The position numbers were made by a program, and so were the translations under genes. The notes beneath the pieces are model-generated. The model did not search any database. It saw only the letters and a list, made by a program, of their open reading frames with translations, and was not told where the DNA came from. Shown here in pieces: positions 29,865 through 45,307 of a stretch of DNA of 64,000 nt. Positions within the stretch are counted from its first letter, which is position 1. Every line of letters starts with the position of its first letter. Source of the DNA: Sinorhizobium sp. RAC02 (GTDB taxonomy: Bacteria; Pseudomonadota; Alphaproteobacteria; Rhizobiales; Rhizobiaceae); contig NZ_CP016450.1 of the NCBI RefSeq assembly GCF_001713395.1, positions 682,001-746,000 of the forward strand, given 5' to 3'.

Positions 29865-30488
29865 ATGCGCCGGACGAAGGCAGAGGCCAAGGAAACCCGC
29901 CAGCAGATCCTGCTGGCGGCAGAAAAGGTCTTCTACGAAAAGGGTGTCGCCCATGCCTCGATGGAGGATGTGGCGCGCGCCGCGGGGGTTACCCGCGGCG
30001 CCATCTATTGGCACTTCGCCAACCGGGCGGACCTCGTGCTGGAACTCTACAATTCGCTTCCCATGCCGCAGGAAGAGCTGATAGCCCGCGAACTGGAAGC
30101 CGAGAATGCCGACGTTTTCGGCGTGCTCGAACGGGTGGGCCGGGAATGGCTCGAAATGCTCGCAACGGACGAGCACCGCCAGCGTATCCTCTCGATCCTG
30201 CTGCGCTGCGACAATACCGGCGAATTCGCCGTCATCTCCGAACGCCAGAACGACATCGACGACGAGCACATGCAGGCGCTGGAAGCGGCCTTCTTGAAGG
30301 CGCAAGGGCAGGGCAAGCTTGGCGGAGCCTGGACGCCGCGCTCGGCCGCCTCCACGTTGCGCTGGGTGATCAAGGGCCTGTGCTCGGAGTGGCTGCTCTT
30401 CGGCCGTCGCTTCGACATCGCCAGCGAAGGCAAGGACGCCCTTCACCGCCTGTTCGCCACCTATGGCACGCCCGCGGCGTCAACCTGA
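29865..30488 (+). CDS. TetR family repressor of the efflux operon (AcrR/TtgR type)
   Basis: 207 residues; N-terminal helix-turn-helix RQQILLAAEKVFYEKGVAHASMEDVARAAGVTRGAIYWHFANRADL, closely of the AcrR/TtgR kind, and an all-helical ligand domain. It is the third gene of the pump operon (6 bp gap) instead of the usual divergent position, so repression would be autoregulatory through the operator at 25284-25307. Its last bases overlap the stop of the convergent small gene. Confidence 0.93.
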   Translation: MRRTKAEAKETRQQILLAAEKVFYEKGVAHASMEDVARAAGVTRGAIYWHFANRADLVLELYNSLPMPQEELIARELEAENADVFGVLERVGREWLEMLATDEHRQRILSILLRCDNTGEFAVISERQNDIDDEHMQALEAAFLKAQGQGKLGGAWTPRSAASTLRWVIKGLCSEWLLFGRRFDIASEGKDALHRLFATYGTPAAST

Positions 30489-30729: not shown

Positions 30730-31962
30730 TTATGTCAGGCCGGGCGGCGTTACCGTGCGGCGCGCGAGCTTGACGAAGGGCCGTGGCACGATCTTCGCGC
30801 GCTTCATCATCTTCTGATACTTCAGCTCTCGCATTGCATAGATTTCGACCCAGAGGTCATCGGTGAATTTTGAACCGTAGGGTCGTTCGAGGCTGGCGAT
30901 GGCGATGTTGCGCTTGGCCGTCGGCGACCAGATCGCGGCGGTGACGAGGCCCGCCTCGTGCTTTTTTCGATGATAGACGATGGCATGCTCGGCGGGAATA
31001 TTTCCTTCGATTTCAAGGCCGACGAGGATGTGCTTAAGAGTTTGATTCCGACGTGCATCGAGGATCGCCCGGCGCCCGTTGAAGTTCGGCTTGTCCGGAT
31101 TGACCAGCCAGTCGAGACCGATTTCGTCGGGCATGCGCACGCGTTGGGCGCGAAGCGAGCCTTCGGCGGTAACGAAATCCGCATTGGCGACGATGAAGCC
31201 GGCTTCGATGCGTGTCTGGTTGAGCGCGCCATAGCCGATGGCGCGTATGGCGTGCTCCTGCCCGGCGGCCCACAAGCGATCCCACAGCGAGAGCGCCTTG
31301 GCACGCGGCACGAAGAGTTCGTAACCGAGGTCACCGGTGAAGCCGGTTCGGGAAATCGTCACCTCGCCATTCTCATGCGGGAAGGTGGCGATATCGAAGG
31401 GTTTCAGCCTTTCCGCGCCCGCAAAGCCAGCGTCGCGCAGTACGGCGTAACTGGTCGGACCCTGCAAAGCGAGGCCTGCGATTTCCTCTGTTTCCTCACG
31501 GATATCGACGGTGAAGCCGAAGGCGCTGTCGAGCAGCCAGGGGAGGTGGCGCTCCTGGCAGCACAGGCGGAATTCCTGCTCGCCAAGGCGGAAGAGCGTG
31601 CCGTCGTCCAGAACATGGCCATGGTCGTCGCACCAGGCGGTGTACTGCACGCGGTTGACGCCGAGTTTGCGCACGTCGCGCAGCGTCAGGCGGTTGAAGT
31701 AGCGTTCGGCATCCGGGCCGGTGATGCGGTATTTCACCATCGGCGATATGTCGAAGAGGGCGGCGGTGGAGCGGATGGCGAAATATTCGAGTTCGCTGTC
31801 GAACAGCGAATGCGGCGCCTTGTAGCCGGCCCAATTGTACCAGTCGTTGACCTCGCTCAGCGCCATCAGTCGGTCATGGAACGGCGTTTCAAGACGAGGC
31901 GCGAGGATATGGTCGCGGGCGGCGCGGCGCAGTTCGGCGGCGGATTTCGTCATGGCGTTCAT
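30730..31962 (-). CDS. GcvT-like aminomethyltransferase / folate-dependent demethylase
   Basis: 410-residue protein of the glycine cleavage T / DmdA / LigM superfamily, whose members move a C1 unit to tetrahydrofolate. Family elements are FDISPMVKYRITGPDAERYFNRLTLRDVRKL, QYTAWCDDHGHVLDDGTLFRL and SRTGFTGDLGYELFVP. The real start is the ATG at 31962 (MNAMTKSAAELRR), where the ATG overlaps the stop of the FAD gene upstream (ATGA). Context with two FAD oxidoreductases and a Rieske oxygenase makes N-demethylation with capture of the methyl group likely; the substrate is unknown. Confidence 0.85.
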   Translation of the reverse strand: MNAMTKSAAELRRAARDHILAPRLETPFHDRLMALSEVNDWYNWAGYKAPHSLFDSELEYFAIRSTAALFDISPMVKYRITGPDAERYFNRLTLRDVRKLGVNRVQYTAWCDDHGHVLDDGTLFRLGEQEFRLCCQERHLPWLLDSAFGFTVDIREETEEIAGLALQGPTSYAVLRDAGFAGAERLKPFDIATFPHENGEVTISRTGFTGDLGYELFVPRAKALSLWDRLWAAGQEHAIRAIGYGALNQTRIEAGFIVANADFVTAEGSLRAQRVRMPDEIGLDWLVNPDKPNFNGRRAILDARRNQTLKHILVGLEIEGNIPAEHAIVYHRKKHEAGLVTAAIWSPTAKRNIAIASLERPYGSKFTDDLWVEIYAMRELKYQKMMKRAKIVPRPFVKLARRTVTPPGLT

Positions 31963-33515
31963 GCTTTCGCTCCCGAAAGGATGTGGCGGGCCGCATTCCA
32001 GCCCGGCAGGCCGGAAATGCCGCCGCCCGGATGCGCGCCGGCGCTGGCGAGATACAGGCCCTCGATTGGCGTCGTGTAGCCGGAGGCGGCACTTGTCGGC
32101 CGGTTGATCAGCAACTGGTCGGCCTGCAATTCGCCATGATGCCAATGGCCACCGGGCAGATTGTACTCCGCCTCGATATCGACGGGCGTCATCAGGTTGG
32201 CTGCAACGACGGATTTGCCGATGCCGGGGGCGTGACGCTCCAAGGTTTCCAGGATGATCTTCAGGAATGCCGGCTTGCCGGCCTCCCATCCTGCCTTGAG
32301 GCGATAGGGGGCGTATTGGACGAGCGCGGAAAGCGTGCAGCCGCCCGCGGGCGCAAGCGACGGGTCGACAAGGCTCGGCAGCGTCAATTCCATCACCGGA
32401 TCGGGAGAGAATTCGCCATATTTCGCGGGGTTGAAGGCGCGCTCGACCTGTTCCATCGACCGCACCAGCACGATGCGCCCGGTGCGGGCATCCACCGGCA
32501 GGCCCTCGAAGTTCGGAATGCGATCGAGTGCAAGGTCGAGCTTGGCGACATTGCCATAGCTGCGCACGTTCTTCACCGAGCGCACGAAGCCGGTGCCGCT
32601 TTCCGCGGGGTCGACGAGGTTGAGGAAGGTCGTCTGCGGATGGATCGCCGAGACGACGATCGGGGCGGTGATCTCCGTGCCGTCACGCGTGACGACGCCG
32701 CTCGTCCTGCCGCGATCGGCCAGGATGCGGCCGACGGGTGTGCCGCAGCGGACGGTGACGCCGGCTTTTTCCGCGGCGTGCACGAAGGCGGGCGCGACGC
32801 TTGCCATGCCGCCTGATGGCACGAACTGGCCGCCGATCTCGCCGGCGACGTCACCTGTCAGGCGATAGTAGAGGCCAAGGAGCGAGGTCGGTGAGCGGGG
32901 GCCGAGATGGATGCCAAGCGTTGCATCGAAGGCGAGCAGCCCTTTCAACCGGTCGTCGCTCAGATATTCGTCCGAAACGTCGGCGACGTTCATCAGCAGC
33001 ATGCGCAGGAAATCGCGGCCTTCACTGCGTCCCTTGCGGATCAGCCCGAAGCCGGCGGCGGCGAAGGTGGAGAGATCGCCAAGCGAGATCGCGCCGATCT
33101 GCGGCGGCGGGCGGCGCAGGAAGCGCTTCAGGATGCCGGCCTGGAAGATGAGTTTTTTGCGCAGGGCTGCGAACGCTGCTTCCTCCTCGGCGGAGACACC
33201 GGCGATGCTCTCGCCGTAGGCGCCATGCAGCGTGATGGCCTTGCCGGAGCCATCGAGCACGGTCGTGGGCAGCAGCGTCCCGTCGCCGGTGAGGTCGAGG
33301 CCAATATCACGCGCGACGTCCGCATCGAGCCGGTTGACGAGATGCGCAAGGCCGGCGGAGCGGAAGCCGGGGGCAAATTCATGCCCGCGCGTCGCGCCGC
33401 CCGGAGCATTCGCCGCTTCCAGCACCAGCACTTTGCGGCCGCCCTTGGCGAGGCGGGTGGCGGCGGCGAGCCCGTTGTGGCCGGCGCCGATAACGATCGC
33501 ATCAAATGACGTCAT
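31959..33515 (-). CDS. FAD-dependent oxidoreductase, phytoene-desaturase-like (second copy)
   Basis: 518 residues; N-terminal dinucleotide fold IVIGAGHNGLAAATRLAKGGRKVLVLEAANAPGG, and C-terminal FAD motif GLYLASAGAHPGGGISGLPGWNAARHIL. Members of this group are called phytoene dehydrogenase-like but many are amine or unknown oxidases, and no carotenoid genes are here. It overlaps the upstream homologue by 14 bases and the downstream GcvT-like gene by 4, so the three are made together. The two FAD proteins are related but clearly diverged, which suggests a heteromer or two successive oxidations. Confidence 0.85.
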   Translation of the reverse strand: MTSFDAIVIGAGHNGLAAATRLAKGGRKVLVLEAANAPGGATRGHEFAPGFRSAGLAHLVNRLDADVARDIGLDLTGDGTLLPTTVLDGSGKAITLHGAYGESIAGVSAEEEAAFAALRKKLIFQAGILKRFLRRPPPQIGAISLGDLSTFAAAGFGLIRKGRSEGRDFLRMLLMNVADVSDEYLSDDRLKGLLAFDATLGIHLGPRSPTSLLGLYYRLTGDVAGEIGGQFVPSGGMASVAPAFVHAAEKAGVTVRCGTPVGRILADRGRTSGVVTRDGTEITAPIVVSAIHPQTTFLNLVDPAESGTGFVRSVKNVRSYGNVAKLDLALDRIPNFEGLPVDARTGRIVLVRSMEQVERAFNPAKYGEFSPDPVMELTLPSLVDPSLAPAGGCTLSALVQYAPYRLKAGWEAGKPAFLKIILETLERHAPGIGKSVVAANLMTPVDIEAEYNLPGGHWHHGELQADQLLINRPTSAASGYTTPIEGLYLASAGAHPGGGISGLPGWNAARHILSGAKA

Positions 33516-35121
33516 GGGCTTTGCTCATCTGTTCGGGGGTGCGCTTCAGGTCGCGCAGGATTTCGGCGGCGGCGTTGCGGCCGGGTGCGCCCATCACGCC
33601 CCCGCCCGGATGGGTAGAGGAGCCGCACATGTAGAGCCCGTGGATGGGGCTGCGATACTGGGCGTAGCCCGGCACCGGCCGGTTGAAGAGAAGCTGGTCG
33701 AAGGTGAGCTCACCCTGGAAGATGTTGCCCTCGGTGAGACCCACCTCATTTTCGATCTCGCGTGGCGTGCGCACTTCCATATGCACGATGCGGTCGCGGA
33801 AGCCGGGCGAATAGTCGGCGATCTGGCTGATGACGGTTTCGGCGAAGGCGTCGCGGTCGGCATCCGTCCAGTCGCGGCCCTCCACTTTCGGCGGGCAGTA
33901 CTGCACGAAGCAGCTCATGAAATGTTTGCCGGGCGAGGCCATGGTCGGGTCGAGTGTCGTCGGGATCACCATGTCGAGGAACGGATCGGCCGACCATCGC
34001 CCGTCCTTCCAGTCGTCATAGGCGCGCTCCATACGCTCGATGGAATCGGTGAAGTGCATGTCGCCGCGCATGCAGGAAGAGCCTGCCGGCAGGGCCGGAA
34101 ATTCCGGCAGGCTGTCGAGCGCGATGTTCACCTTGCCCGACGAGCCGCGCATCTTGAAGTGCTTGACCCGGTGGACGAATTCGCCGGGCAGGGCGTCCTC
34201 GTCGACGAGTTTCAGGAAGGTGCGCTTCACGTCGGCATTGGAGACGACGAGGTCGGCGCGGATCTCGTCTCCGTTCGCCAGCACGACACCGGTGGTGCGC
34301 CCGCCGCGGGTGAGGATTTTCGAGACTTCGGCATCGGTACGGATCGTGCCACCCACGGCCTCGAAGGAGCGGGCGAGCGCCTGCGTCACCGCGCCCATGC
34401 CGCCGCGCGCATAGCCCCAGGCGCCGACGGAGCCGTCCACTTCGCCCATGTAGTGATGGAGCAGGACGTAGGCCGTGCCCGGCGACATCGGGCCGAGCGC
34501 CGTGCCGATGATGCCGGAGAGCGCGAGATAGGCCTTGATGACGTCCGTCTCGAAATATTCGTCGAGATAATCGGAAATCGACATGGTCCAGAAGCGCAGC
34601 GTCTCGGCCATTTCGTGCGGGCTGAACTCGCCGAATTTCTTGGCGAGGTAGAGGAACTCCGAAATGTCGCGCGGGCGAAAACCGAACGGATCCGGCGCGG
34701 TGCGCATCAAGAGGGGCTGGATGAAGCGGCACTGGCGCGTCACGTCGCGGGCGTAGCGCTCGTAAGCCTCGGCGTCGCGCTTCGAATAGCGGGCGAATTC
34801 GCGGCGGTGGCTGTCGTGGTCGCGGTAGGAGGCGAGGTAGTCGCCATCGCGGGTGAAGACCGCGCCGCCCTCATAGGCGATGACCTGGAGGCCGTGTTTT
34901 GGCAGTTCGAGATCGCGCATGATCTCGGGCCTAAACAGCGAGCAGACATAGGAACAGTTGGAATAGAGGAAGCCGGGCGTCAACTCCCGGCTGGTCGCGG
35001 CACCCCCGACCCAGCCGTTCTTTTCCACCACCACGACCTTGAGGCCGGCGCGCTGCAAATAACACGCCGTGACCAGCCCGTTGTGGCCGCCACCGACGAT
35101 CAGGGCATCGTACTTTTGCAT
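33502..35121 (-). CDS. FAD-dependent oxidoreductase, phytoene-desaturase-like (first copy)
   Basis: 539 residues with the dinucleotide fold ALIVGGGHNGLVTACYLQRAGLKVVVVEKNGWVGGAATS at the N terminus and GLYMCGSSTHPGGGVMGAPGRNAAAEIL at the C terminus. It is the first gene of the leftward operon. I start at the ATG at 35121 (MQKYDALIVGG), 10 bases after GGGAG; the longer open frame would run into the operator. The exact substrate is unknown; its setting favours an amine-type substrate over a carotenoid. Confidence 0.86.
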   Translation of the reverse strand: MQKYDALIVGGGHNGLVTACYLQRAGLKVVVVEKNGWVGGAATSRELTPGFLYSNCSYVCSLFRPEIMRDLELPKHGLQVIAYEGGAVFTRDGDYLASYRDHDSHRREFARYSKRDAEAYERYARDVTRQCRFIQPLLMRTAPDPFGFRPRDISEFLYLAKKFGEFSPHEMAETLRFWTMSISDYLDEYFETDVIKAYLALSGIIGTALGPMSPGTAYVLLHHYMGEVDGSVGAWGYARGGMGAVTQALARSFEAVGGTIRTDAEVSKILTRGGRTTGVVLANGDEIRADLVVSNADVKRTFLKLVDEDALPGEFVHRVKHFKMRGSSGKVNIALDSLPEFPALPAGSSCMRGDMHFTDSIERMERAYDDWKDGRWSADPFLDMVIPTTLDPTMASPGKHFMSCFVQYCPPKVEGRDWTDADRDAFAETVISQIADYSPGFRDRIVHMEVRTPREIENEVGLTEGNIFQGELTFDQLLFNRPVPGYAQYRSPIHGLYMCGSSTHPGGGVMGAPGRNAAAEILRDLKRTPEQMSKAHDVI

Positions 35122-35181: not shown

Positions 35182-35195
35182 TGAATGATCATTCA
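35182..35195. promoter_or_regulatory. TetR-type operator site 1 (TGAATG-NN-CRTTCA)
   Basis: TGAATGATCATTCA, part of a perfect 16-bp palindrome (35181-35196), between the divergent FAD and methyltransferase operons. The same TGAATG-NN-CRTTCA arrangement recurs at 41303-41316 and 45294-45307, in front of the other promoters of this cluster. It resembles BetI-type operators. The likely binder is the TetR protein encoded at 36101-36811. Confidence 0.75.
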
Positions 35196-35240
35196 GCAAG
35201 TATCTTGCAATCGCCTGATTATGCGCTAGAATTTCGACCT

Positions 35241-36104
35241 ATGGACAAGCGCGCCGGTTCTGTGGCCGCTGGAGCAGGGATTGCCATGGTGGCAACAGAC
35301 GGGGATGGTACGGCGTCAGAGCCGGAATATGACGAGGCGGCGATCCGTTTCCTCGGCGTGTTGTGGGGCGAGGGCTATCTTTCGCCCGGCGGGCCGGCAG
35401 AGGTCGATCGCGTGCTGGCGGGTGTCGATCTCAAGGGGCGACGCGTTCTCGATTTCGGCTGCGGCGCCGGCGGCATAACCCTCCATATTGCCAGGACTCA
35501 AGGGCCTGCGGAGATCGTCGGTTATGATGTCGAGCAGCCTGTCATCGAACGGGCGAGGGCGGCGGCGGTGACGCAGGGGCTTTCCTCCATCGTGCGTTTC
35601 GTTTCCAGTTCGCCGGGTAGTCTGCCGTTCGATGTTGATGAATTCGATGCCGTGTTCTCCAAGGATGCGATGATCCATGTGCCGGACAAGCAGGCGCTCT
35701 TTGCCGAACTCTTCCGCGTCCTGAAACCCGGCGGCGTCTTCGCTGCATCCGACTGGCTGATCGGCCATGACGGTGAGCCGAGCCCCGACATGAAGGACTA
35801 CATCGCCGCCGAGGGACTGAGCTTCGGCATGGCCTCGTCGCGCCATTATCTGAGGGCCATGGCGACGGCGGGGTTCGTCGATTGCACCGCCGAGAGCCGC
35901 AACGGCTGGTATCGCGAGGTGGCGCGCGGTGAGTTGGCACGTCTGAAAGGTCCGCTCTATGACGAGGCTGTCGCAGCTGTCGGCGAGGCCTATGTCGAGA
36001 AGAATATCCGCACCTGGACCGCCATGCAGAAGGTTCTTGACAGCGGGGAGCATTGTCCCACTCATCTGCGCGCAAACAAGCCGGCCGCGGGAGAACGCCC
36101 GTGA
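35241..36104 (+). CDS. Class I SAM-dependent methyltransferase
   Basis: 287 residues with a Rossmann core: motif I VLDFGCGAGG, VGYDVEQPVIERA for motif II, DEFDAVFSKDAMIHVPDK for the central part and LKPGGVF. It reads like small-molecule or amine methyltransferases (for example phosphoethanolamine-type), but a target cannot be assigned. The ATG at 35241 has no good SD. An ATG at 35286 with GCAGGGA upstream (MVATDGDG) is an alternative and would shorten it by 15 residues. It heads the rightward operon with the TetR and binding-protein genes. Confidence 0.8.
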   Translation: MDKRAGSVAAGAGIAMVATDGDGTASEPEYDEAAIRFLGVLWGEGYLSPGGPAEVDRVLAGVDLKGRRVLDFGCGAGGITLHIARTQGPAEIVGYDVEQPVIERARAAAVTQGLSSIVRFVSSSPGSLPFDVDEFDAVFSKDAMIHVPDKQALFAELFRVLKPGGVFAASDWLIGHDGEPSPDMKDYIAAEGLSFGMASSRHYLRAMATAGFVDCTAESRNGWYREVARGELARLKGPLYDEAVAAVGEAYVEKNIRTWTAMQKVLDSGEHCPTHLRANKPAAGERP

Positions 36105-36811
36105 CCGTGCTCATGAAAAATCCCAAAGGCAAGGTGACGGTGAAGATGCGGGCAGGCGGGGCTGAACAGGGCTCGGGTGATGGCGAGAAGCGGGGCCGCA
36201 AGGCCTCCAAGGAAACGAGACGGCAGCAGCTCATCGAGGCGACAATCGATTCGCTCGCCAAGCGCGGTTATTCCGATACCACGCTGGCAGATGTGGCGGA
36301 TGGTGCTGGCCTTTCCCGTGGCATCGTCAATTTCCATTTCGAGAGCAAGGAAAACCTGCTCGTCGCCACGCTGCAATTCATGTCGGAAGAGTATGGCGAC
36401 CACTGGAATGCGGCGCTGGAAAAAGCCGGCCCAAGCGTGGCGAGCCGCATCTGGGCCGTCGTGCATGCCGATTTCGACCGCAAGATCTGCACCAAGCGCA
36501 AACTTGCCGCCTGGTGCGCCTTCTGGGGTGAGGCGAAGTCGCGCCCGACCTACCAGGCGCTGTGCGGTGCGCGCGACGTCAAATACCAGGAAACCGTGAT
36601 CGCGCTCTGCGCCGAGCTGAAGGTGGAGGGCGGCTATGCCTATGAACCGGAGCCGATGGCGCTATCGCTCTGCGCCATGCTGGAGGGCCTGTGGCTTCGC
36701 CTGATGATGGGCGACGGCACCACGCGGGAGAAGGCGCTGGAGGCGGCAATCGCCTTCGTCGTCACGGTTTTCCCGAACCATCTGACTTTGCAAGGACCAA
36801 AACCACAATAG
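36101..36811 (+). CDS. TetR family regulator (BetI-like)
   Basis: 236 residues. An unusually long basic N-terminal arm (about 30 residues) precedes the helix-turn-helix (QQLIEATIDSLAKRGYSDTTLADVADGAGLSRGIVNFHFESKENLL). The ligand domain with WCAFWGEAKSRPTYQ resembles the BetI group. I choose the GTG at 36101, overlapping the methyltransferase stop, 7 bases after GGGAG; an ATG at 36113 is possible. It is the only regulator in the cluster, and the three TGAATG-NN-CRTTCA sites are its likely targets, including its own promoter (35182). Confidence 0.9.
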   Translation: MTVLMKNPKGKVTVKMRAGGAEQGSGDGEKRGRKASKETRRQQLIEATIDSLAKRGYSDTTLADVADGAGLSRGIVNFHFESKENLLVATLQFMSEEYGDHWNAALEKAGPSVASRIWAVVHADFDRKICTKRKLAAWCAFWGEAKSRPTYQALCGARDVKYQETVIALCAELKVEGGYAYEPEPMALSLCAMLEGLWLRLMMGDGTTREKALEAAIAFVVTVFPNHLTLQGPKPQ

Positions 36812-36840
36812 GGAACCCGAAAACGGGGAAGGAGCACGGC

Positions 36841-37923
36841 ATGACGACAACAAACACGGCCAAGCGGTACACCACGACGGCATTGGCCGCCTTCCTCGCT
36901 CTCGGAACCGCACTCCCTGCCTTCGCCGCCGATACGCTCACCGTCTTCGACTGGTCCGGCTACGAGGACCCCGCTTTTCATCCCAAATATACGGAGAAAC
37001 ACAACGGTTCGCCGGATTTCTCGTTCTTCGGCGATGAAGAAGAAGCGTTCCAGAAACTACGGTCGGGCTTCAAGGCGGATATCGCGCATCCCTGCGCGCA
37101 GAGCATCGTGAAATGGCGTGAGGCCGGGTTGCTGGAGCCGCTGGATACGTCGAAGCTGACGTCGTGGAACGACATGCTGCCGAATTTCAAGACGATGAAG
37201 AACCTGATGACGTCGGAAGACGGCACGGCGTGGTTCCTTCCCTTCGAGTGGGGCAACACGGTGTTGACCTACCGCACGGATACGGTGAAGCCGGAAGAAA
37301 TCGCCTCGCTCAAAGCCTTTGCCGATCCGAAGTTCAAGGACCGCGTGTCGATCGGTGACAATGTCGACGACGCCTATGCGCTGGCGGGCCTCGCCATCGG
37401 CCTCAAGGACCTGACGGCGATGACGGACGCGCAGTTCCAGGAGGCCTCGGCGTTTCTGCGCGAGGTGCACAAGAACGTACGGCTCTACTGGACGGACAAC
37501 ACGGATCTCAGCCAGGCGCTCGCCAGCGGCGAAGTCGATCTCGCCTGGGCCTGGAACGAGACGGCGACCACTTTGCAGGCGGAAAGCCAGCCGGTCGCCA
37601 TCAAGAAGGACACGAAGGAGGGGCTTTCCACCTGGGTTTGCGGCTACTCGCGGCTCAAGGGTGCCGAAGGCAGCCCTGATCTTGCCTATGATTATCTGAA
37701 CGCCGTCACGGACCCTGCCGTCGCCGCCTATATGGTCGAAAGCTGGGGGTATGGCCATTCCAATGCCAAGGGCATGGCTGTCGTCGACCCGAAGATCCTT
37801 GCCGCCAAGGGCTATGCGGATGTCGACTCATTCGTCGCCAACACGCTCTTCCAGGCGCCGATCCCGACGGAGTTGCGGCAGAAGATGATCGCCGAGTTCG
37901 AGAAGATCAAATCGGGCTATTGA
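36841..37923 (+). CDS. Spermidine/putrescine-type (PotD) binding protein
   Basis: 360-residue periplasmic binding protein with a Sec signal peptide (ALAAFLALGTALPAFA, cut near 29). LTVFDWSGYEDPAFHPKY opens the mature part in the manner of PotD/PotF. The start ATG at 36841 has AAGGAG upstream. It is encoded 30 bp after the TetR gene, away from its permeases, which lie at 38298-41155 on the other strand with no binding-protein gene of their own. The set therefore makes a full transporter, probably for a cationic amine or betaine. Confidence 0.92.
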   Translation: MTTTNTAKRYTTTALAAFLALGTALPAFAADTLTVFDWSGYEDPAFHPKYTEKHNGSPDFSFFGDEEEAFQKLRSGFKADIAHPCAQSIVKWREAGLLEPLDTSKLTSWNDMLPNFKTMKNLMTSEDGTAWFLPFEWGNTVLTYRTDTVKPEEIASLKAFADPKFKDRVSIGDNVDDAYALAGLAIGLKDLTAMTDAQFQEASAFLREVHKNVRLYWTDNTDLSQALASGEVDLAWAWNETATTLQAESQPVAIKKDTKEGLSTWVCGYSRLKGAEGSPDLAYDYLNAVTDPAVAAYMVESWGYGHSNAKGMAVVDPKILAAKGYADVDSFVANTLFQAPIPTELRQKMIAEFEKIKSGY

Positions 37924-38036
37924 GGACTTTTAAGCGCTTTTAAGCGCCCCCTGCCATAGATCGCCCGTCCGCTCCCGGAACGACCCGGGAGCGCTCTGCG
38001 TTGAGTCCGGTTCAATATCGCGTGAGGTATTGCGTC

Positions 38037-38288
38037 ATGGACCCGAAACGCTGGAGCAAACCGATCACTTTCGAGACGCCGCATCTTGGCCAGTATAGAA
38101 CGATCGTCAGCACGCAGGAGGCGGTGCGGGCGCTTGTGAATGACTGGCCTCTCCAGAAGGGACGGCAACTCAAGGCGGCACGAAAGACCTGCGCAGCCGT
38201 GCTCGAGGGCAGGAAGCCGCCCTCCGAGGCGCGCAACGCCTTCATCGCCGCAGCCGTCGAGGCTGACGTTTTCGTGCGCGAAAAGTAG
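38037..38288 (+). CDS. DUF982 domain protein
   Basis: 83 residues with the DUF982 pattern common in rhizobia (SKPITFETPHLGQYRTIVSTQEAVRALVNDWP ... RKTCAAVLEGRKPPSEARNAFIAAAVEADVFV). The function of the family is unknown. The ATG at 38037 follows GAGG. It is 113 bp after the binding protein, with a strong inverted repeat without a U-run in the gap (CGCTCCCGG and CCGGGAGCG, 37970-37994), so it may or may not share the transcript. Confidence 0.82.
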   Translation: MDPKRWSKPITFETPHLGQYRTIVSTQEAVRALVNDWPLQKGRQLKAARKTCAAVLEGRKPPSEARNAFIAAAVEADVFVREK

Positions 38289-38297
38289 GCTCTGGCG

Positions 38298-39407
38298 TTA
38301 CACCCGCGAAACCGGCGGGTCCTCCGCCAGAAGCACGAAGGCATCGGGATCATAGGCGAGGCGGATTTCTGCGCCGACAGGCAGGTCGTCTGCGCCAAAA
38401 TTGTTCGTCTCGACCATGGAGAGTGGCTGTTCCAGCCCGTCAATGCCGACTGTCAGGTGGGTGACCTCGCCGAAATAGGCACGGTTCTCGATGCGACCGG
38501 TGAGTTCGTGTGGCGCGCGATCGTCGTCCCACAGCAAGCACAGCCGCTCCGGGCGGATTCCGACGGTGACATGGCCGTTGGCGGTGGCAAAGCCCTGCGG
38601 CTTGACGAGATTGACGGCACCGAAGCGCGCGGCATCGACGGAGACGGTATCGGCCTGCTCGCCGAGCACTTTGGCCTTCAAAAAGTTCATGCCGCCGAGA
38701 AAGTCGGCGACCTTGCGGGTGCGTGGGCGCTGGTAGATTTCCTTGGGGCTGGCGATCTGGGCGATGCGGCCGCCGAACATGACGGCGATGCGGTCGGAAA
38801 GCGCCAAGGCCTCGTACTGGTCATGCGTGACGAGGATGAAGGTGATGCCAACCGCCTTTTGCAGGGTGCGCAGTTCCACCTGCATTTCCTCGCGCAGCTT
38901 CTTGTCGAGGGCGGAGAGGGGTTCGTCGAGCAGCAGCACCTTCGGGCGCATGACGAGGGCGCGGGCGAGGGCCACGCGCTGGCGCTGGCCGCCGGAGAGT
39001 TCGTGCGCCTTGCGCTGGCCGAGACCCGACAGGCGCACCATATCGAGCGCGTCACCGACGCGCTTCTTCTCGTCCTCCGGCGAAAGTTTTAGCCGTTTCA
39101 GGCCGTAGGCGACGTTTTCCCCTACGTCGAGATGCGGGAAGATGGCGTAGCTCTGGAACACCATGTTGGTCGGCCGCTTGTTCGGCGGCAGGGCCAGAGA
39201 GGGCACGCCGTCGATATAGATCTCGCCGGCCGTCGGCGTTTCGAAGCCGGCGATGGAGCGCAGAAGCGTGGTCTTGCCGCAACCGGAGGGGCCGAGCAGC
39301 GAGAAGAATTCGCCCTCTGCGATCGACAGCGACACGTCGTCGAGCGCCTTGTAGATGCCGTAGAACTTCGACACGTTTTCGATCTGGATCATCGCGCGGT
39401 CGGGCAT
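38298..39407 (-). CDS. ABC transporter ATP-binding protein (PotA type)
   Basis: 369-residue ATPase: Walker A GPSGCGKTT, Q-loop VFQSYAIFPH, signature [14 protein letters not shown], Walker B LLLDEPLSALD, switch His in THDQ, and a TOBE domain at the C terminus. Family-typical for spermidine/putrescine uptake. The ATG at 39407 is 7 bases after TAGGAG. It is the third gene of the leftward operon, 9 bp after the second permease gene. Confidence 0.94.
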   Translation of the reverse strand: MPDRAMIQIENVSKFYGIYKALDDVSLSIAEGEFFSLLGPSGCGKTTLLRSIAGFETPTAGEIYIDGVPSLALPPNKRPTNMVFQSYAIFPHLDVGENVAYGLKRLKLSPEDEKKRVGDALDMVRLSGLGQRKAHELSGGQRQRVALARALVMRPKVLLLDEPLSALDKKLREEMQVELRTLQKAVGITFILVTHDQYEALALSDRIAVMFGGRIAQIASPKEIYQRPRTRKVADFLGGMNFLKAKVLGEQADTVSVDAARFGAVNLVKPQGFATANGHVTVGIRPERLCLLWDDDRAPHELTGRIENRAYFGEVTHLTVGIDGLEQPLSMVETNNFGADDLPVGAEIRLAYDPDAFVLLAEDPPVSRV

Positions 39408-39416
39408 GGATGGCTC

Positions 39417-40241
39417 CTAGGGCAGCATGAGCGCCATCTGCGTGCGGCGTTCAGCACGGCGACGCAGGATTTCGGCGAGGGTCAGCATGAGGATGGAGGC
39501 AACGAGCATGATGGTGCCGAGCGCCAGCACGCCGGGCAGTTTGGCGGCGAAGCGCAACTGGCCCCAGATGTAGACCGGCAACGTCGGCTCGGTGCCGGAC
39601 AGGAAGAAGGCGAGGATGAACTCGTCGAGCGAAATGGTGAAGGTGACGAGCAGGCTGGAGACGATGGCGGGCGCCACCACCGGCAGCGTCACGCGCCGGA
39701 AGGTGCCGATGGCGGTTTCGCCGAGATCGTAGGAGGCTTCCTCCAGGCTGCGGTCGAAGCCCTCGAAGCCGGAGACCAGCACCGACATGGCATAGGGCAC
39801 GCAGAACACCGTCTGGCCGAGAATGACGGTGAAGAGCGAGAGTTCGACACCCATTGCCAGCACGATCATCAAAAGCGAGACGGCGACGATGATCTCCGGC
39901 AGGAAGAGCGGCGCCATGATGAGGCCTGTCGCCGCGCGCTGGCCGCGAAAGCGGTAGCGCGTGATCGCGCGGGCGGCGCAGATGCCGAGGATGGTCGACA
40001 GCAGCGCGACCGAGATGCCGACGACGAGGCTGTTCCAGGCTGCCTCCATCATCACCGAATTGCCGGCGAGCGAGCCGTACCACTTGGTCGTGAAGCCGGC
40101 GAGCGGGAAGGTGGTGGTGGCCGCATTGTTGAAGGAGAAGACCGGCAGCAGCAGAATGGGTAGGTAGAGGAACAGGAAATAAACCGCGACATAGACCGGC
40201 AGCCAGGGAATGAAGCGAAGGCGCTGCGTGAGAAGGCTCAT
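39417..40241 (-). CDS. ABC transporter permease (PotC type)
   Basis: 274-residue permease with six predicted helices, NNAATTTFPLAGFTTKWY near the N terminus as in PotC, and the EAA loop (EASYDLGETAIGTFRRVTLPVVAPAI). Its start overlaps the PotB-type gene stop by four bases (ATGA). Confidence 0.93.
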   Translation of the reverse strand: MSLLTQRLRFIPWLPVYVAVYFLFLYLPILLLPVFSFNNAATTTFPLAGFTTKWYGSLAGNSVMMEAAWNSLVVGISVALLSTILGICAARAITRYRFRGQRAATGLIMAPLFLPEIIVAVSLLMIVLAMGVELSLFTVILGQTVFCVPYAMSVLVSGFEGFDRSLEEASYDLGETAIGTFRRVTLPVVAPAIVSSLLVTFTISLDEFILAFFLSGTEPTLPVYIWGQLRFAAKLPGVLALGTIMLVASILMLTLAEILRRRAERRTQMALMLP

Positions 40242-41155
40242 TTGATCCTCCGCACGGTGAACTTCAGGGCGAGAACCACGGCGGCCGCCACGAGCGACAC
40301 GAGGATCATCGTCGTGACCGAAAGGGCCGCGCCCAGCGGCCAGTTCGCGCCCTTGCCGAACTGTGCCTGGATGGCGGTGGCGATCATCACGCCGTCCTTG
40401 TCGCCGACGAGGCGCGGCGTCACGTAGTCGCCGACCGTCGGGATCATCACGATCAGGAAGGCCGAGATGACGCCCGGCAGCGACAGCGGCAGCGTGATGC
40501 GGAAGAAGGCGCGGATGCGGCTATCGCCAAGATCGCGCGCCGCTTCGATCAATGTGCGGTCCACCTTCTGGAGCGACACATAGATCGGTAGGATGGCGAA
40601 GGCGGCCCAGCTGTGCACCAGCGTGATGACGACGGCATTGGAGTTGTAGAGCAGCGAGGTCACCGGCTTGTCGATGAGGCCCATCGAGATGAGACCGGTG
40701 TTCATGACGCCGCCATAGCCCAGGATGATCTTCCACGACATGACACGCAGAAGATAGCTGGTCCAGCAGGGCACGGTGACGAGGAAGAGCCAGAGGTTCT
40801 TGTGCACGCCGCCATGGAAGGAAATGAACCAGGCGACCGGATAGGAGAAGACGACGGTCACGACGCTGACGGTCAATGAGATCCAGAGCGAGCGGACGAA
40901 AAGGTCGCGGTAGATCGGCTCGGTGAGCGCCTGCCGGTAGTTTTCCAGCGTGAAGGTGCGGTCGATGTCGAGATAGTTTTGCGTCCAGAAACTGTAGGCG
41001 ATGACGATGAGGACCGGGAGAAAGAGCAGCGCCAGCGCGTAGAGGAAGGTCGGCGATACCATGGCGAGGCCGCGGGCCTCTTCGCTCCGCATCCAGGCCC
41101 GGCGCCTGGAGGGGGAGGGTGCGTCGTCGATCCTCTCGAACGCCGTCGCCGTCAT
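40238..41155 (-). CDS. ABC transporter permease (PotB type)
   Basis: 305-residue permease with six helices and the EAA loop (EAARDLGDSRIRAFFRITLPLSLPGV). I start at the ATG at 41155 (MTATAFERIDD), 9 bases after GGAG; a TTG at 41179 would add eight residues. First gene of the leftward permease/ATPase operon, divergent from the aminotransferase across operator site 2. Confidence 0.93.
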   Translation of the reverse strand: MTATAFERIDDAPSPSRRRAWMRSEEARGLAMVSPTFLYALALLFLPVLIVIAYSFWTQNYLDIDRTFTLENYRQALTEPIYRDLFVRSLWISLTVSVVTVVFSYPVAWFISFHGGVHKNLWLFLVTVPCWTSYLLRVMSWKIILGYGGVMNTGLISMGLIDKPVTSLLYNSNAVVITLVHSWAAFAILPIYVSLQKVDRTLIEAARDLGDSRIRAFFRITLPLSLPGVISAFLIVMIPTVGDYVTPRLVGDKDGVMIATAIQAQFGKGANWPLGAALSVTTMILVSLVAAAVVLALKFTVRRIK

Positions 41156-41302
41156 CGTGCGGAACTCCAGCCGCGACAACTCTCATAAAGCGTGAGCTTT
41201 CCCGTTTCCATGTACGCCTGCCTTTTCGGCTTGGTGTGTTCCCGAAACGAAACATGCGCCCAAATCCCCGTTGAAATCAAGCCCTGTTTCTGCAATATTG
41301 AT

Positions 41303-41316
41303 TGAACGAACATTCA
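41303..41316. promoter_or_regulatory. TetR-type operator site 2
   Basis: TGAACGAACATTCA on the + strand (TGAATG-TT-CGTTCA on the minus), the same element as at 35182 and 45294, lying in the divergent region between the permease operon and the aminotransferase gene. The flanking ATATTGAATG and CAAT also match site 3. Confidence 0.75.
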
Positions 41317-41391
41317 ATATGATTGGGAAACTTAAATTCTTTCATATTGTTGTGCGCAGAATCTTTTCGCAAACACATGATGGAGAGGGAT

Positions 41392-42807
41392 ATGGCGGCA
41401 ATTCTGAAGACGGCGAACGAGCAGGCTGACGAGGCGGTCGACGATCTCACCCGGCTTGCGGAGCGCCATCTGGTGCAGCCCTGGCCGGTCTCCGGCTCCA
41501 TCGGCGCGGAGGCGCGCGGGCGCATCGAATCCGGTGAGGGCATCTATGTGACAGATGCCGCCGGCCGCAAGCTGATCGATGGTCCTGCCGGCATGTGGTG
41601 CGTCAATGCCGGCCACCGCAACAAGGAGCTGGCCGACGTCATGGCGTCGCAGGCCATGGAGCTTTCCTACAATTCGCCCTGGTATACGACGAACACGCCC
41701 TCTGCCGTGCTGTCGGCGCGCTTGGCGAAGCATGCGCCGGATGGTGTCGACCATGTCTTCTACACGACGGGCGGCTCTTCGGCGGTCGAGACGGCGCTGC
41801 GCTTCATGCAGTTCGCCAACAATGTAAAGGGCCGGCCGGAGAAGAAGCTGATCGTTTCCCGACAGGGCGGCTATCACGGCTCGACCTTTCTCTCGGCCTC
41901 GCTCAACGGCCGGCCGCGCGACCATGACTGGATGGACAGCGCGTCCGACCTCGTCGTGAAGCTTTCCTGCCCGAACCCTTTCCGCCGGCCTGAAGGCATG
42001 AGCGTCGAGGCTTTCTGCGATTTCCTCGTCGAGGAATTCCGGCAGGTCATAGAGGAGAGAGGCGCGGACAGGATCGGCGCCTTCATCGCCGAGCCCGTCA
42101 TGGCTTCCGGCGGCGTCATCGTGCCGCCGCCCGGTTACCTGAAGCGCATGCACGCGCTCTGCCGCGCAAACGATATCCTGTTCATCGCCGACGAGGTGGT
42201 GACGGCCTTCGGGCGGCTCGGTCATGTCTTTGCTTCGAAGGATGTCTTCGACATCGAGCCGGACATGATCACCTTCGCCAAGGGCGTCACGTCGGGCTAT
42301 TTCCCGCTCGGCGGCGTGATGATCGCCGGACGGCTTTTCGAGGAACTGCGCCGGTCGAACCATTCCGAAGCGATGTTCGCACACGGGCTCACCTACTCCA
42401 GCCACCCGGTCGGCTGCGCCGTGGCGCTGAAGAACCTCGATATTCTGGAGGGCGGGCTTTTGGAGCATACGCTGGCGATGTCGGACCACTTCCAGAAAAG
42501 CCTGAAGGCGCTGGAGGACCTGCCGCTGGTTGGCGAGGTGCGGGGTCTCGGGCTGATGGCCTGCGTCGAATGTGTCGCCGACCGCGCCAGCAACAATCCG
42601 CTGACACTCGACCTCGAAGTCGGCAAACGCATCGACAAACATTGCCAGGAACTCGGCCTCCTGGTGCGTCCGCTCATTAACATGTGCGTGATGTCGCCGC
42701 CGCTCACCATCTCGCTTTCGCAGATCGACGACATGACGGCGATCCTGCGCAAGGGCATTGAGCTCACCATGGACGATCTTGTCCGCGAGGGGCTCTGGAA
42801 GGGCTAA
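41392..42807 (+). CDS. Class III aminotransferase
   Basis: 471-residue PLP enzyme of the omega-aminotransferase group. Hallmarks: GMWCVNAGHRNKELAD, YYTTGGSSAVET-type substrate loop (VFYTTGGSSAVETALR), IADEVVTAFGRLG, and the PLP lysine K297 in TFAKGVTSGYFPLGG. The ATG at 41392 has GGAGAGGG directly upstream; an ATG pair at 41377 is the alternative. A terminator follows the gene. In this cluster it would remove an amino group from a freed amine using pyruvate or a 2-oxo acid; the exact amine is not predictable. Confidence 0.92.
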   Translation: MAAILKTANEQADEAVDDLTRLAERHLVQPWPVSGSIGAEARGRIESGEGIYVTDAAGRKLIDGPAGMWCVNAGHRNKELADVMASQAMELSYNSPWYTTNTPSAVLSARLAKHAPDGVDHVFYTTGGSSAVETALRFMQFANNVKGRPEKKLIVSRQGGYHGSTFLSASLNGRPRDHDWMDSASDLVVKLSCPNPFRRPEGMSVEAFCDFLVEEFRQVIEERGADRIGAFIAEPVMASGGVIVPPPGYLKRMHALCRANDILFIADEVVTAFGRLGHVFASKDVFDIEPDMITFAKGVTSGYFPLGGVMIAGRLFEELRRSNHSEAMFAHGLTYSSHPVGCAVALKNLDILEGGLLEHTLAMSDHFQKSLKALEDLPLVGEVRGLGLMACVECVADRASNNPLTLDLEVGKRIDKHCQELGLLVRPLINMCVMSPPLTISLSQIDDMTAILRKGIELTMDDLVREGLWKG

Positions 42808-42859
42808 GCCCTTCTGTAGAAAGTACGTTTGGAGCGACCATTCCCCGGTCCAAACGGTT

Positions 42860-42887
42860 GAGGCCCGCGAAAGCGGGCCTCTTTTTT
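42860..42887 (+). terminator. Intrinsic terminator after aminotransferase
   Basis: GAGGCCCGC-GAAA-GCGGGCCTC (42860-42881) followed by TTTTTT: a stable nine-base-pair stem with a GNRA-type loop. Confidence 0.92.
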
Positions 42888-43000
42888 GTGCGCCGTTTCC
42901 ACAGGGAGACCGGCCGACCCGCCGGCTCGGGCGCCGCAGCAAAGGCTTGCGCTCATGCGGCGCATGATGGCATTAGGGCTCCTTCTTCGGAGAATGGCAC

Positions 43001-44071
43001 ATGAGCAACGACACAACAGCAAGGCGGCCGTGGGCGCGACTGGTCCTTATCGCATCGCTTTTTGCGTGGGCGCCGTTTGCCGCCGCCACACCGGCCAAGG
43101 CCACGCCCGTTCTCGTCGTCGATGCCGACAGCCGCCAGGTGCTCTACCAGGAGGATGCCGGCGCGCCGTGGTATCCTGCCTCCACGACCAAGCTGATGAC
43201 GGCGCTCGTCGTGTTCGAAGCGCTGAAAGCCGGTGAAGTGACCATGTCGACGCCGGTGGTGATGACCCGCAATGCCACAAAGCAGGCATTTCTCGAGTCG
43301 GGCCTGACCTTCGGGCGGACGATGACGCTCGAAGACGCGCTCTATGCCGTGATTACCGCATCGGCCAATGACGTCGCCGTAGCCCTTGCCGAAGCCGTGG
43401 CATCCAATGAGGCGTCCTTCGTTGTGCGGATGAACAGGACGGCGGCGCGTCTTGGCCTCACCGGCACCCACTATTCCAATCCGAACGGCCTGTTCGACAA
43501 GACGAACTATACGACCGCGCGGGATCTCGCGATCCTGGGCATGGAGGTCGACCGGGTGTTTCCCGGATACAGGCGCTTTTTCCAGGCCTCTTCCGTCACG
43601 ATCGATGGCAAGGAGATCAAGTCCAACAATCTGCTCCTGACCCGGTTCAACGGCACGATCGGCATGAAGACGGGCTTCATCTGCGCCTCCGGGCGAAACA
43701 TTGTCGGGCTGGCGACACGCAACGGACGGCGCATGATGGTGGTCATCCTGGGTGCGACGACGGAACGCGAGCGCAACGAGCGCTCTGCGCAATACCTGAC
43801 GCAGGCATTCGATGGCCGCCTGCCCGCAGGCGCAGGGCTTGTCGAGGGCCTGCAGAACCAAACCGGTGTGGCGCCGGAAGACATGCGCATTCGTCTGTGC
43901 ACCGACAAGAGTGCGGCCTATGAGGCGAGCCGCGATGCCCTTTACCCGATGGGTCTGCCGGGGCAGGAAAGCTATTTGAAGGACCGGGTAACCGAGCAGG
44001 TTCACACCATCGCCACCTGGCCCAGCGAGCATCTTGAGGATGTGCCCCTGCCGAAGTCCCGTCCTTCGTAA
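43001..44071 (+). CDS. D-alanyl-D-alanine carboxypeptidase (S11, PBP5/6 type)
   Basis: 356-residue serine D,D-carboxypeptidase, exported by an N-terminal signal (to about residue 30, ending AAATPAKA). The three catalytic motifs are in place: STTK (61-64), SAN (121-123) and KTG (223-225). The role is trimming peptidoglycan pentapeptide. No membrane-anchoring C-terminal helix is seen (the tail is PLPKSRPS), so it may be soluble in the periplasm. It has no obvious link to the surrounding catabolic genes. Confidence 0.93.
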   Translation: MSNDTTARRPWARLVLIASLFAWAPFAAATPAKATPVLVVDADSRQVLYQEDAGAPWYPASTTKLMTALVVFEALKAGEVTMSTPVVMTRNATKQAFLESGLTFGRTMTLEDALYAVITASANDVAVALAEAVASNEASFVVRMNRTAARLGLTGTHYSNPNGLFDKTNYTTARDLAILGMEVDRVFPGYRRFFQASSVTIDGKEIKSNNLLLTRFNGTIGMKTGFICASGRNIVGLATRNGRRMMVVILGATTERERNERSAQYLTQAFDGRLPAGAGLVEGLQNQTGVAPEDMRIRLCTDKSAAYEASRDALYPMGLPGQESYLKDRVTEQVHTIATWPSEHLEDVPLPKSRPS

Positions 44072-44074
44072 AAC

Positions 44075-45274
44075 CTAGTCCGGGCTTTTCAGGCCGGCAT
44101 TGGTTTCCGCCATCGCCTTTTCCTCCGGCGCGTCCTTCAGGGTCATCACCGGCAGCACCTTGCGCAGGTGGTCATGATGGGTGCGCACGCCGTATTCGAG
44201 GTCGGAGAGGTAGAAGCCGGCAAAGGCGTTTGATGTCATGGCCTCGTTCGACCAGACGGTGAGCTGTACGTCTTCGGCCTGCGTGTCGCGATCGATGCGG
44301 AAGGCGAGGTAGCGGGCGAGGCGATGTGCGCGATCCTCTTCCCGGTGGCGGTAGATGCCACCGCGCAGCATCGTCTTGCCGACAGCGACGGGAAATTCCT
44401 GATAGAATTGCACGGTCTCCGGCGTGACGGCGATGACGCAGTTCGGGAAGAGGCCGAAATAGATCCAGGCCTTGCGCAACTGTTCCGGCAGGTGCGGATT
44501 CTCTTGCGAGATCTTCACATAGTTGCGCACGCTCCAGCGGCGGCCGGCATGAGGATTGTAGGTCGCGAAAGAGCGGCAAAGACCATTGATGAAAGGCTCG
44601 TCATAGTAGGTGGAGCCGTAGAGGTCCTGCAAAGCCGGATGGGCCATGGCGACGTGATAGCCCTCGTTGTCGACGTCGCGCACCGACTTCCAGTTGACCG
44701 GTGTCTCCTGCGTCCAGATTTCACCAGCCGGCACCATGTCTTCAGAGCGGTAGTGGGAAAGCTCCTGCTCGAACGGTTTCATCAGCTCGGCGACGTAGGG
44801 CTGCGGGCCGGGCGCGAAGCGGACGAAGACAAAACCCTGCCAGATCTCGCATTCGAGCGATTTCAGCGCGAACTCGTTCTTGTCGAGCGGCGGGAAGCTT
44901 TTGGGGCGCGCGGCACCGCGCAGCGTGCCGTCGAGATTGTAGACCCAGCCGTGGAAGGGACAGACCAGCGCGTTGCGGCAGGTTCCCTTGTCGTCGGCGA
45001 CGAGGCGGGAGCCGCGGTGGCGGCAGATGTTATGGAAAGCGCGGACCTCGCCGTCCTGCCCGCGCAGGATGAGCGCGCGTTCGCCGATGGCATCCATGGT
45101 GAGGTAATTGCCGGGCTCCGGAATATCGGAGACATGGCAGGCGATCTGCCAGTGTTCGCGAAAGACATGCTGCTTTTCGAGGTCCAGCAGGGCAGGGCTA
45201 TGATAACACCAACCCGGAAGCCCGCTTCTGTCCCAGTCATTCGGAACGCTGATATCGCGGATCATCTCGTTCAT
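44075..45274 (-). CDS. Rieske non-heme iron oxygenase, carnitine/betaine type
   Basis: 399-residue oxygenase alpha subunit. Rieske cluster ligands: C84, H86, C105, H108 (CRHRG ... CPFHGW). Mononuclear iron site: E204-x2-H207-x4-H212 (NEGYHVAMAHP). The residue bridging the two sites is glutamate, where ring hydroxylases such as naphthalene dioxygenase have aspartate; carnitine oxygenase CntA also has Glu. This favours a quaternary-amine or N-methyl substrate over an aromatic ring. No reductase or ferredoxin gene is in the window. The ATG at 45274 follows GGGGAG; operator site 3 lies 20 bp upstream. Confidence 0.88.
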   Translation of the reverse strand: MNEMIRDISVPNDWDRSGLPGWCYHSPALLDLEKQHVFREHWQIACHVSDIPEPGNYLTMDAIGERALILRGQDGEVRAFHNICRHRGSRLVADDKGTCRNALVCPFHGWVYNLDGTLRGAARPKSFPPLDKNEFALKSLECEIWQGFVFVRFAPGPQPYVAELMKPFEQELSHYRSEDMVPAGEIWTQETPVNWKSVRDVDNEGYHVAMAHPALQDLYGSTYYDEPFINGLCRSFATYNPHAGRRWSVRNYVKISQENPHLPEQLRKAWIYFGLFPNCVIAVTPETVQFYQEFPVAVGKTMLRGGIYRHREEDRAHRLARYLAFRIDRDTQAEDVQLTVWSNEAMTSNAFAGFYLSDLEYGVRTHHDHLRKVLPVMTLKDAPEEKAMAETNAGLKSPD

Positions 45275-45293
45275 GGTGCTCCCCTTATTTTGC

Positions 45294-45307
45294 TGAACGT
45301 TCATTCA
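45294..45307. promoter_or_regulatory. TetR-type operator site 3
   Basis: TGAACGTTCATTCA on the + strand (TGAATG-AA-CGTTCA on the minus), upstream of the Rieske oxygenase start on the minus strand. It shares its flanks (TATATTGAATG, CAAAA) with site 2. Confidence 0.75.

Follow-up and report, generated by a model that had tools for sequence, protein, structure and literature searches.

What controls a gene cluster that joins a Pot-type importer to a Rieske oxygenase, two flavoproteins, a folate-binding protein and an aminotransferase, and what does that cluster break down? The question arises from a stretch of 64,000 nucleotides of the Sinorhizobium sp. RAC02 genome (contig NZ_CP016450.1, positions 682,001 to 746,000), referred to here as the window, in which such a cluster contains a gene for a TetR-family regulator (36101..36811, plus strand; coordinates are those of the window). 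Very probably, one BetI-like repressor governs a gene set for the import and breakdown of an N-methylated amine in Shinella and many related soil bacteria. With regulation and pathway taken together, this is considered the probable explanation of the locus; its regulatory part, TetR control through three promoter sites, can be held with considerable confidence on comparative grounds, and the scheme of demethylation followed by transamination, read from protein families, is plausible and still tentative. The original prediction had proposed a single regulator acting on the whole cluster, and its core (one TetR, three promoters, an operator resembling those of BetI and a cluster not devoted to choline) stands, although not all parts of its interpretation are supported.

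In the proposed regulation, the TetR protein would act as a BetI-type repressor, binding a 14-bp dyad, TGAA-N6-TTCA, in three promoter regions and thereby controlling the genes FAD1, FAD2 and GcvT, its own methyltransferase-TetR-PotD operon, potABC, the aminotransferase gene and the Rieske gene. The imported amine, or an early product of that amine, would release the repressor.

Three copies of one dyad

Matches to TGAATGNNCRTTCA occur in the window at 35182, 41303 and 45294, exactly where sites of the type TGAATG-NN-CRTTCA had been predicted; the four strand matches represent three places, since site 1 is a perfect palindrome and is counted on both strands, and shuffled windows hold a mean of 0.02 matches. 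Operator 1 (TGAATGATCATTCA, 35182..35195) lies between FAD1 and the methyltransferase-TetR-PotD operon, 61 bp upstream of the FAD1 start, operator 2 (TGAACGAACATTCA, 41303..41316) between potB and the aminotransferase gene, and operator 3 (TGAACGTTCATTCA, 45294..45307) 20 bp upstream of the start of the Rieske gene, none of the three being assigned a strand. Each thus falls in an intergenic region serving the genes that had been named for it, and the flank that sites 2 and 3 were said to share beyond the core is TTCAATAT. The genome-wide scan that had been set beforehand as the refuting test found the motif not scattered but confined to the same three places in all 6,626,583 bases, with 0 copies of the reversed control pattern. 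Searches with relaxed stringency are uninformative: with two mismatches the window gives 9 strand matches against 7.4 expected, and allowing one mismatch to TGAAYGNNCRTTCA finds 22 places in the genome, compared with 15 for the control. Extra weak sites elsewhere in the genome were therefore rejected, the one-mismatch matches being near the control level.

The sites are real. The original prediction wrote them in an asymmetric form; relatives show that the motif is better described as the dyad TGAA-N6-TTCA (TGAAYRNNYRTTCA), in which positions 5-6 are mostly YG and positions 9-10 mostly CR.

The dyad accompanies the cluster

Conservation was assessed in 80 loci plus the window (81 sequences), spanning Rhizobium, Ensifer, Mesorhizobium, Hoeflea and some Rhodobacterales, with Shinella as the nearest named relatives. 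Intergenic regions were cut where both neighbouring genes were present, and were excluded when a neighbour was off the fetched stretch, not adjacent or more than 900 bp away; the upstream region of the Rieske gene was taken as 350 bp. At least one region was contributed by 76 loci and the window, and none by L044, L047, L048 and L093, leaving totals of 76, 67 and 48 regions for operators 1, 2 and 3. The motif, whose absence upstream of orthologous clusters had been named as grounds for rejection, is present there: the dyad occurs in 76/76, 67/67 and 48/48 orthologous regions, respectively, and every one of these regions contains a match to TGAAYGNNCRTTCA with no more than one mismatch, compared with 0.4, 0.9 and 0.3 % of shuffles. 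A motif-blind count of 4352 dyads (four-base words with spacers of 0-16) ranks TGAA-N6-TTCA first, in 191 of 191 regions, with TGAA-N2-TTCA as the runner-up in 91; the former is also found in all 50 regions of a 21-sequence subset. All 119 distinct sites agree in their four outermost bases at either end. These counts are not independent trials, because the sequences are related. In some loci, among them L075, L077 and L082, the block of potABC and aminotransferase genes lies on the other side of the cluster, and the site has moved along with it. A chance origin of the motif was rejected in view of the shuffles, its uniqueness in the genome and its conservation in orthologous regions.

Loss of the cluster is matched by loss of the sites. 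At least one site of the wider form TGAAYRNNYRTTCA is present in 77 of the 80 loci, and the three loci that have none (L044, L047 and L048) are without the cluster. Among 21 Shinella genomes surveyed, own genome included, all 17 with FAD1 carry at least two sites, and the other four (G003, G009, G019 and G020) have neither FAD1 nor sites, the TetR gene being present in all four and its surroundings having been inspected in three. The fetched stretches of L044 (S. zoogloeoides), L047 (S. sumterensis) and L048 no longer contain the enzyme and transporter genes; what is left is the TetR gene (82-86 % identical), flanked on one side by an efflux operon that includes a TetR-like gene of its own, and with an amidase-like gene nearby on the other. 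Several Shinella (L044, L047, L048 and L175-L177) have retained the TetR after loss of all of its presumed targets.

The runner-up dyad, TGAA-N2-TTCA, is often nested in the 14-mer, as it is in site 3, and this nesting recalls the overlapping BetI2 boxes of Ruegeria pomeroyi described in PMC12442346.

Which regulator reads the sites?

As predicted, the cluster has a single TetR gene, which lies within the methyltransferase-TetR-PotD operon. It is closely tied to the catabolic genes: of the 394 genomes of the family that were sampled, 87 have FAD1 (E <= 1e-200), and in 86 of those the TetR gene (E <= 1e-40) is within 4 kb of it, FAD1 of the 87th being 1 kb from a contig end. In S. kummerowiae the TetR is 97 % identical. 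The protein contains PF00440 and the BetI-type C-terminal domain PF13977 (58 bits, gathering threshold 27), and yet it scores only 118.1 bits against the BetI equivalog TIGR03384, below the curated cut-off of 201.3, and 113 bits against PRK00767, below 118; a quick tree without support values places it apart from the BetI proteins of Escherichia coli and Shinella. On these comparisons, the cluster TetR is best described as a BetI-type protein but not BetI. The claim that this is not the standard choline operon is borne out by the location of the canonical betI of the genome, which is elsewhere (C1:2060717), beside the choline-sulfatase gene betC, and no betA, betB, betC or choline transport gene is found among the 10 cluster proteins scanned.

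The operators likewise resemble those of BetI, as had been proposed: both the Shinella betI region and, in E. coli, the betI-betT region contain related ATTGA-N8-TCAAT dyads. The ATTGA...TCAAT form is complete at site 2 and present as one half at site 3, and its outer bases are absent at site 1. Site 2 (ATTGAACGAACATTCAAT) shares its outer frame with sequences in the betI regions of Shinella (ATTGATTGATCACTCAAT) and E. coli (ATTGATTGGACGTTCAAT), and we infer from their position that ATTGATTGATCACTCAAT and ATTGATTGGACGTTCAAT are BetI operators. In E. coli, S. meliloti and Acinetobacter, BetI has been described as a repressor that responds to choline, and the footprinted box of R. pomeroyi BetI1 is ATTGACGCGTCAAT, a consensus that the BetI2 boxes do not fit (PMC12442346). 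The cluster TetR shares with BetI and with R. pomeroyi BetI1 and BetI2 the BetI-type C-terminal domain, a dyad related to ATTGA...TCAAT and the proposed control of several promoters by one regulator, and it differs from BetI in falling below the equivalog cut-off and in its company of non-bet genes; the BetI1 box ATTGACGCGTCAAT has a spacing shorter than that of the cluster dyad (PMC12442346).

This likeness raises the alternative that canonical BetI, rather than the cluster TetR, reads the sites and that the cluster is a part of choline/betaine metabolism. The inner 14-mer of ATTGATTGATCACTCAAT in the Shinella betI region differs from site 1 at two symmetric positions only, and 45 of the 49 TetR-bearing genomes searched have a BetI above the cut-off. 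However, the remaining four are G143, with no BetI match at 1e-45, and G221, G334 and G374, with sub-threshold matches only, and in all four FAD1 and the TetR gene stand side by side; the three of these that correspond by contig to sampled loci (G143, G221 and G374, which are L077, L080 and L071) keep the sites. Furthermore, the betI region of the RAC02 genome itself does not fit TGAA-N6-TTCA, and the linkage between TetR and FAD1 is nearly invariant. Given cluster genomes with no BetI match or only a weak one, canonical BetI is very unlikely to be the reader. The cluster TetR is the better candidate, because of its linkage with FAD1 and the presence of sites in genomes whose BetI match is lacking or weak, with cross-talk between the two being possible. 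Control of three promoters by the TetR is thus well supported by the conserved dyad, the Shinella pattern, the TetR-FAD1 linkage and the sites in a genome that gives no BetI match.

The TetR might also activate its targets, or act together with a second regulator. Promoter-like matches place the sites non-uniformly (one 9-of-12 match near site 1, one near site 2 and none near site 3), and in the divergent clusters L161-L163 a second TetR gene (37-39 %) lies beside the first. However, BetI is the precedent for a repressor, no second regulator is found within the cluster of the window, and the adjoining efflux operon has a TetR-like gene whose end, at 30488, is just beyond the cluster; activation or joint control is improbable, and a local repressor is preferred.

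Recognition helices and operator variants

The TetR recognition helix LSRGI(V/A)NF(H/Y)F is paired with TGAA-N6-TTCA in L160-L162, L167, L168, L182 and L183, whose TetR proteins have 50-66 % identity; L163, outside the helix comparison, has sites as well. The TetR of Parasedimentitalea L134 is 33 % identical and has the helix LSQGVAVFYF, and its locus has cluster genes without TGAA-N6-TTCA. There, TTGAGCGCTCAA stands ahead of FAD1 and of the binding-protein gene, and these are the sole copies of TTKAGCGCTCAA that the 153-kb plasmid has (control, 0). A Rieske gene is preceded by TTTAAGCGCTCAAT, which differs by a single change. In L164-L166 and L133 (helix LSHGL..FHF), TTGAC-N6-GTCAA lies upstream of the TetR gene, with one flank base changed in L133; this dyad is only suggestive, because its 6-10 copies per genome in G129, G334 and G374 are near the control frequency of 5-7. 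A differing recognition helix tends, in this set, to go with a differing dyad, and if such co-divergence is true, the L134 TetR would bind TTTGAGCGCTCAA and not TGAA-N6-TTCA.

Several observations weigh against so exclusive a pairing of regulator and operator. The comparison of helices and operators was made post hoc, and L159 encodes a TetR with the same helix and has neither cluster nor site. No site accompanies the differing helices of L158, L172 and L173, and a single site precedes the TetR gene of L174, whose helix is related. Outside Shinella, the bare motif is also met apart from the cluster: the 32 family genomes listed without such a TetR hold 22 copies of TGAAYGNNCRTTCA against 2 of the reversed control, a hand count for which the TetR-negative genomes are only partly named in the source listing, and four other Shinella (G005, G006, G010 and G012) each have one to three extra exact copies of TGAAYGNNCRTTCA. 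Out of 20 regions around sites in such TetR-negative genomes or around more distant sites, 17 have no BetI-like gene and no cluster genes beyond weak ABC, GcvT and Rieske matches (27-32 %); two others (L182 and L183) hold cluster genes with a TetR, and in L195 the site adjoins a BetI-like gene. The same operator letters may also serve other regulators of the BetI type.

What the cluster may import and degrade

The proposed route would begin with uptake by PotABCD, followed by monooxygenation by the Rieske enzyme, one or two flavin-dependent N-demethylations in which the one-carbon (C1) unit passes to tetrahydrofolate via the GcvT-like protein, and, lastly, transamination of the resulting primary amine.

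The GcvT-like folate-binding protein (30730..31962, minus strand) is one pointer to N-methyl groups. Its Pfam GCV_T domain scores 191 bits (cut-off 25.6), and it falls below the equivalog cut-offs for both the GcvT of glycine cleavage (157 of 236 bits) and Tdm (252 of 1100). Its nearest relative is the C-terminal, folate-binding domain of trimethylamine N-oxide (TMAO) demethylase (9q5a, E 1.1e-52), the paired aspartates of which are kept. The GcvT domain of Tdm and of sarcosine oxidase binds folate and takes up the N-methyl carbon. The cluster shares this folate-binding GcvT domain; unlike that of Tdm, its GcvT is a separate protein beside two flavoproteins, FAD2 (31959..33515, minus strand) and FAD1 (33502..35121, minus strand), both assigned by family scans as flavin adenine dinucleotide-dependent oxidoreductases resembling amine oxidases and phytoene desaturases.

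The catalytic subunit of the Rieske oxygenase (44075..45274, minus strand), placed by family scans and an alignment relative to structures, has carnitine monooxygenase CntA and stachydrine demethylase Stc2 as its closest solved relatives, with GbcA also related, and it keeps the bridging glutamate (E205 of CntA). The class III aminotransferase (41392..42807, plus strand) exceeds the cut-off of PRK07036 (689.6 vs 618 bits), a model that names no substrate; its closest solved chain is 3i5t, likewise without a named substrate, followed by 4-aminobutyrate transaminases, with polyamine : pyruvate transaminase lower. The importer comprises a PotD-like periplasmic binding protein (36841..37923, plus strand; family scan and alignment), a PotA-like ATP-binding cassette (ABC) ATPase (38298..39407, minus strand; family scan), a PotC-like permease (39417..40241, minus strand; family scans) and a PotB-like permease (40238..41155, minus strand), the last named by position and sequence from an open reading frame that is conserved in position. 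In the family-library scan, which covered the PotA-, PotC- and PotD-like proteins, all three fall below the curated cut-offs. The cluster also encodes an S-adenosylmethionine-dependent methyltransferase (Methyltransf_11/31 by family scans; 35286..36104, plus strand, start codon uncertain).

Three points tell against this scheme as drawn. The Cys-X-X-Cys beside the iron, a feature of some group V Rieske members according to PMC10952381, is absent from the cluster enzyme, in which EGYHV replaces ECYHC in 53 of 57 sequences (the other four being end fragments); the likeness to group V lies in its closest solved relatives and bridging glutamate, and the difference in the missing cysteine pair of the two structures CntA and Stc2. 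No Rieske reductase is found among the proteins scanned, in the course of which no dedicated reductase search was made. Thirdly, at the polyamine-ligand positions of PotD (E36, Y85, D168, E171 and D257), the binding protein has G, Q, N and C in place of E36, Y85, D168 and D257, respectively, and a conservative D in place of E171; three tryptophans are kept, and the changes are invariant in 12 aligned sequences. The importer thus belongs to the same ABC family as the spermidine/putrescine importer PotABCD, but has lost the acids of the ligand pocket.

The cluster might instead degrade a polyamine or another non-methylated amine, with GcvT and the flavoproteins acting otherwise. The resemblance of the importer to PotABCD, the rank of 4-aminobutyrate and polyamine transaminases among relatives of the aminotransferase, and a flavin amine-oxidase gene (one copy scanned) between potD and potA in 31 loci are consistent with this. 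However, the polyamine ligands of PotD are replaced, and the folate C1 protein and the GbcA/CntA-related Rieske enzyme point to N-methyl groups, so that this alternative appears unlikely. With the binding-protein pocket changed, a polyamine is a doubtful substrate, and with the cysteine pair of CntA and Stc2 absent, betaine is an unproven one. The TRIS (tris(hydroxymethyl)aminomethane) degradation system was rejected as a description of this cluster, because neither a Rieske enzyme nor an aminotransferase is mentioned in PMC10848231. A neighbouring pair of Rieske and FAD genes on a Sphingobium plasmid was also set aside, the identities being 35.6 and 38 % and the annotation containing no other cluster gene.

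The preferred reading remains the stripping down of an N-methylated amine. A more specific version is possible, and rather less likely than the general scheme: Rhizobiaceae and Rhodobacterales would have an undescribed pathway for catabolism of an N-methyl amine, either quaternary or tertiary, in which a new Rieske subclass lacking the cysteine pair of CntA and Stc2 would remove the first methyl group, the two flavoproteins and the free-standing folate protein would remove the others and the aminotransferase would finish. The pathway would exist in shortened and extended forms, and its multi-promoter layout would be kept while helix and operator co-vary (TGAA-N6-TTCA, TTGAC-N6-GTCAA and TTTGAGCGCTCAAW).

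A description of the cluster was not found in the open-access literature searched, which is not proof of its being unpublished. The regulation, a local TetR with several operators, is by comparison of sequences of an ordinary kind that is here unusually well supported; the gene set for importing and stripping down an N-methylated amine is apparently undescribed. If true, the scheme would add a pathway of N-demethylation linked to folate, a subclass of Rieske enzymes and, within the BetI group, an example of a repressor and its operator diverging together. A widespread catabolic unit becomes directly testable: the operator can report on the inducer, and strains in which the TetR has outlived the cluster are natural nulls.

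Variation in gene content

The reduced clusters of L160, L167 and L168 keep the methyltransferase, TetR, aminotransferase and Rieske genes, together with another Pot-type importer, and have no match to FAD1, FAD2 or GcvT in the fetched stretch. Beside this importer is a gene for a serine hydrolase of the beta-lactamase fold (L168 12756-14060, L167 4598-5821 and L160 11313-12545), an assignment based on a scan of the L168 copy and on judgement by sequence for the other two. In the window and 4 of the 80 loci, the aminotransferase and Rieske genes are separated by a gene that, from its sequence, resembles those for D-alanyl-D-alanine carboxypeptidases.

A class I aminotransferase gene adjoins the cluster in five loci (L068, L074, L087, L090 and L104), four of which also have a 2-ketoarginine decarboxylase-like gene (above the NCBIfam cut-off in L074); in the RAC02 genome itself (L140), a pair similar by sequence adjoins a second, weakly BetI-like regulator. 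In L183 (5624-15557), from another family of the order, the TetR and Rieske genes form a pair with two sites; next to it are genes for an Old Yellow Enzyme-type flavoprotein, a cytochrome P450 and a thioesterase that resembles the C-terminal portion of carnitine dehydrogenase (at 96 bits, well under the cut-off), which gives a weak hint of a quaternary amine. The cluster of Rhizobium sp. SL42 (L136 7239-11751) adjoins genes for a MocE-type ferredoxin and inositol dehydrogenase, neighbours that may resemble a rhizopine gene set. In Fuscovulum (L133 25647-28095), the cluster operon also contains genes for a cupin of the dimethylsulfoniopropionate-lyase fold and an amidohydrolase.

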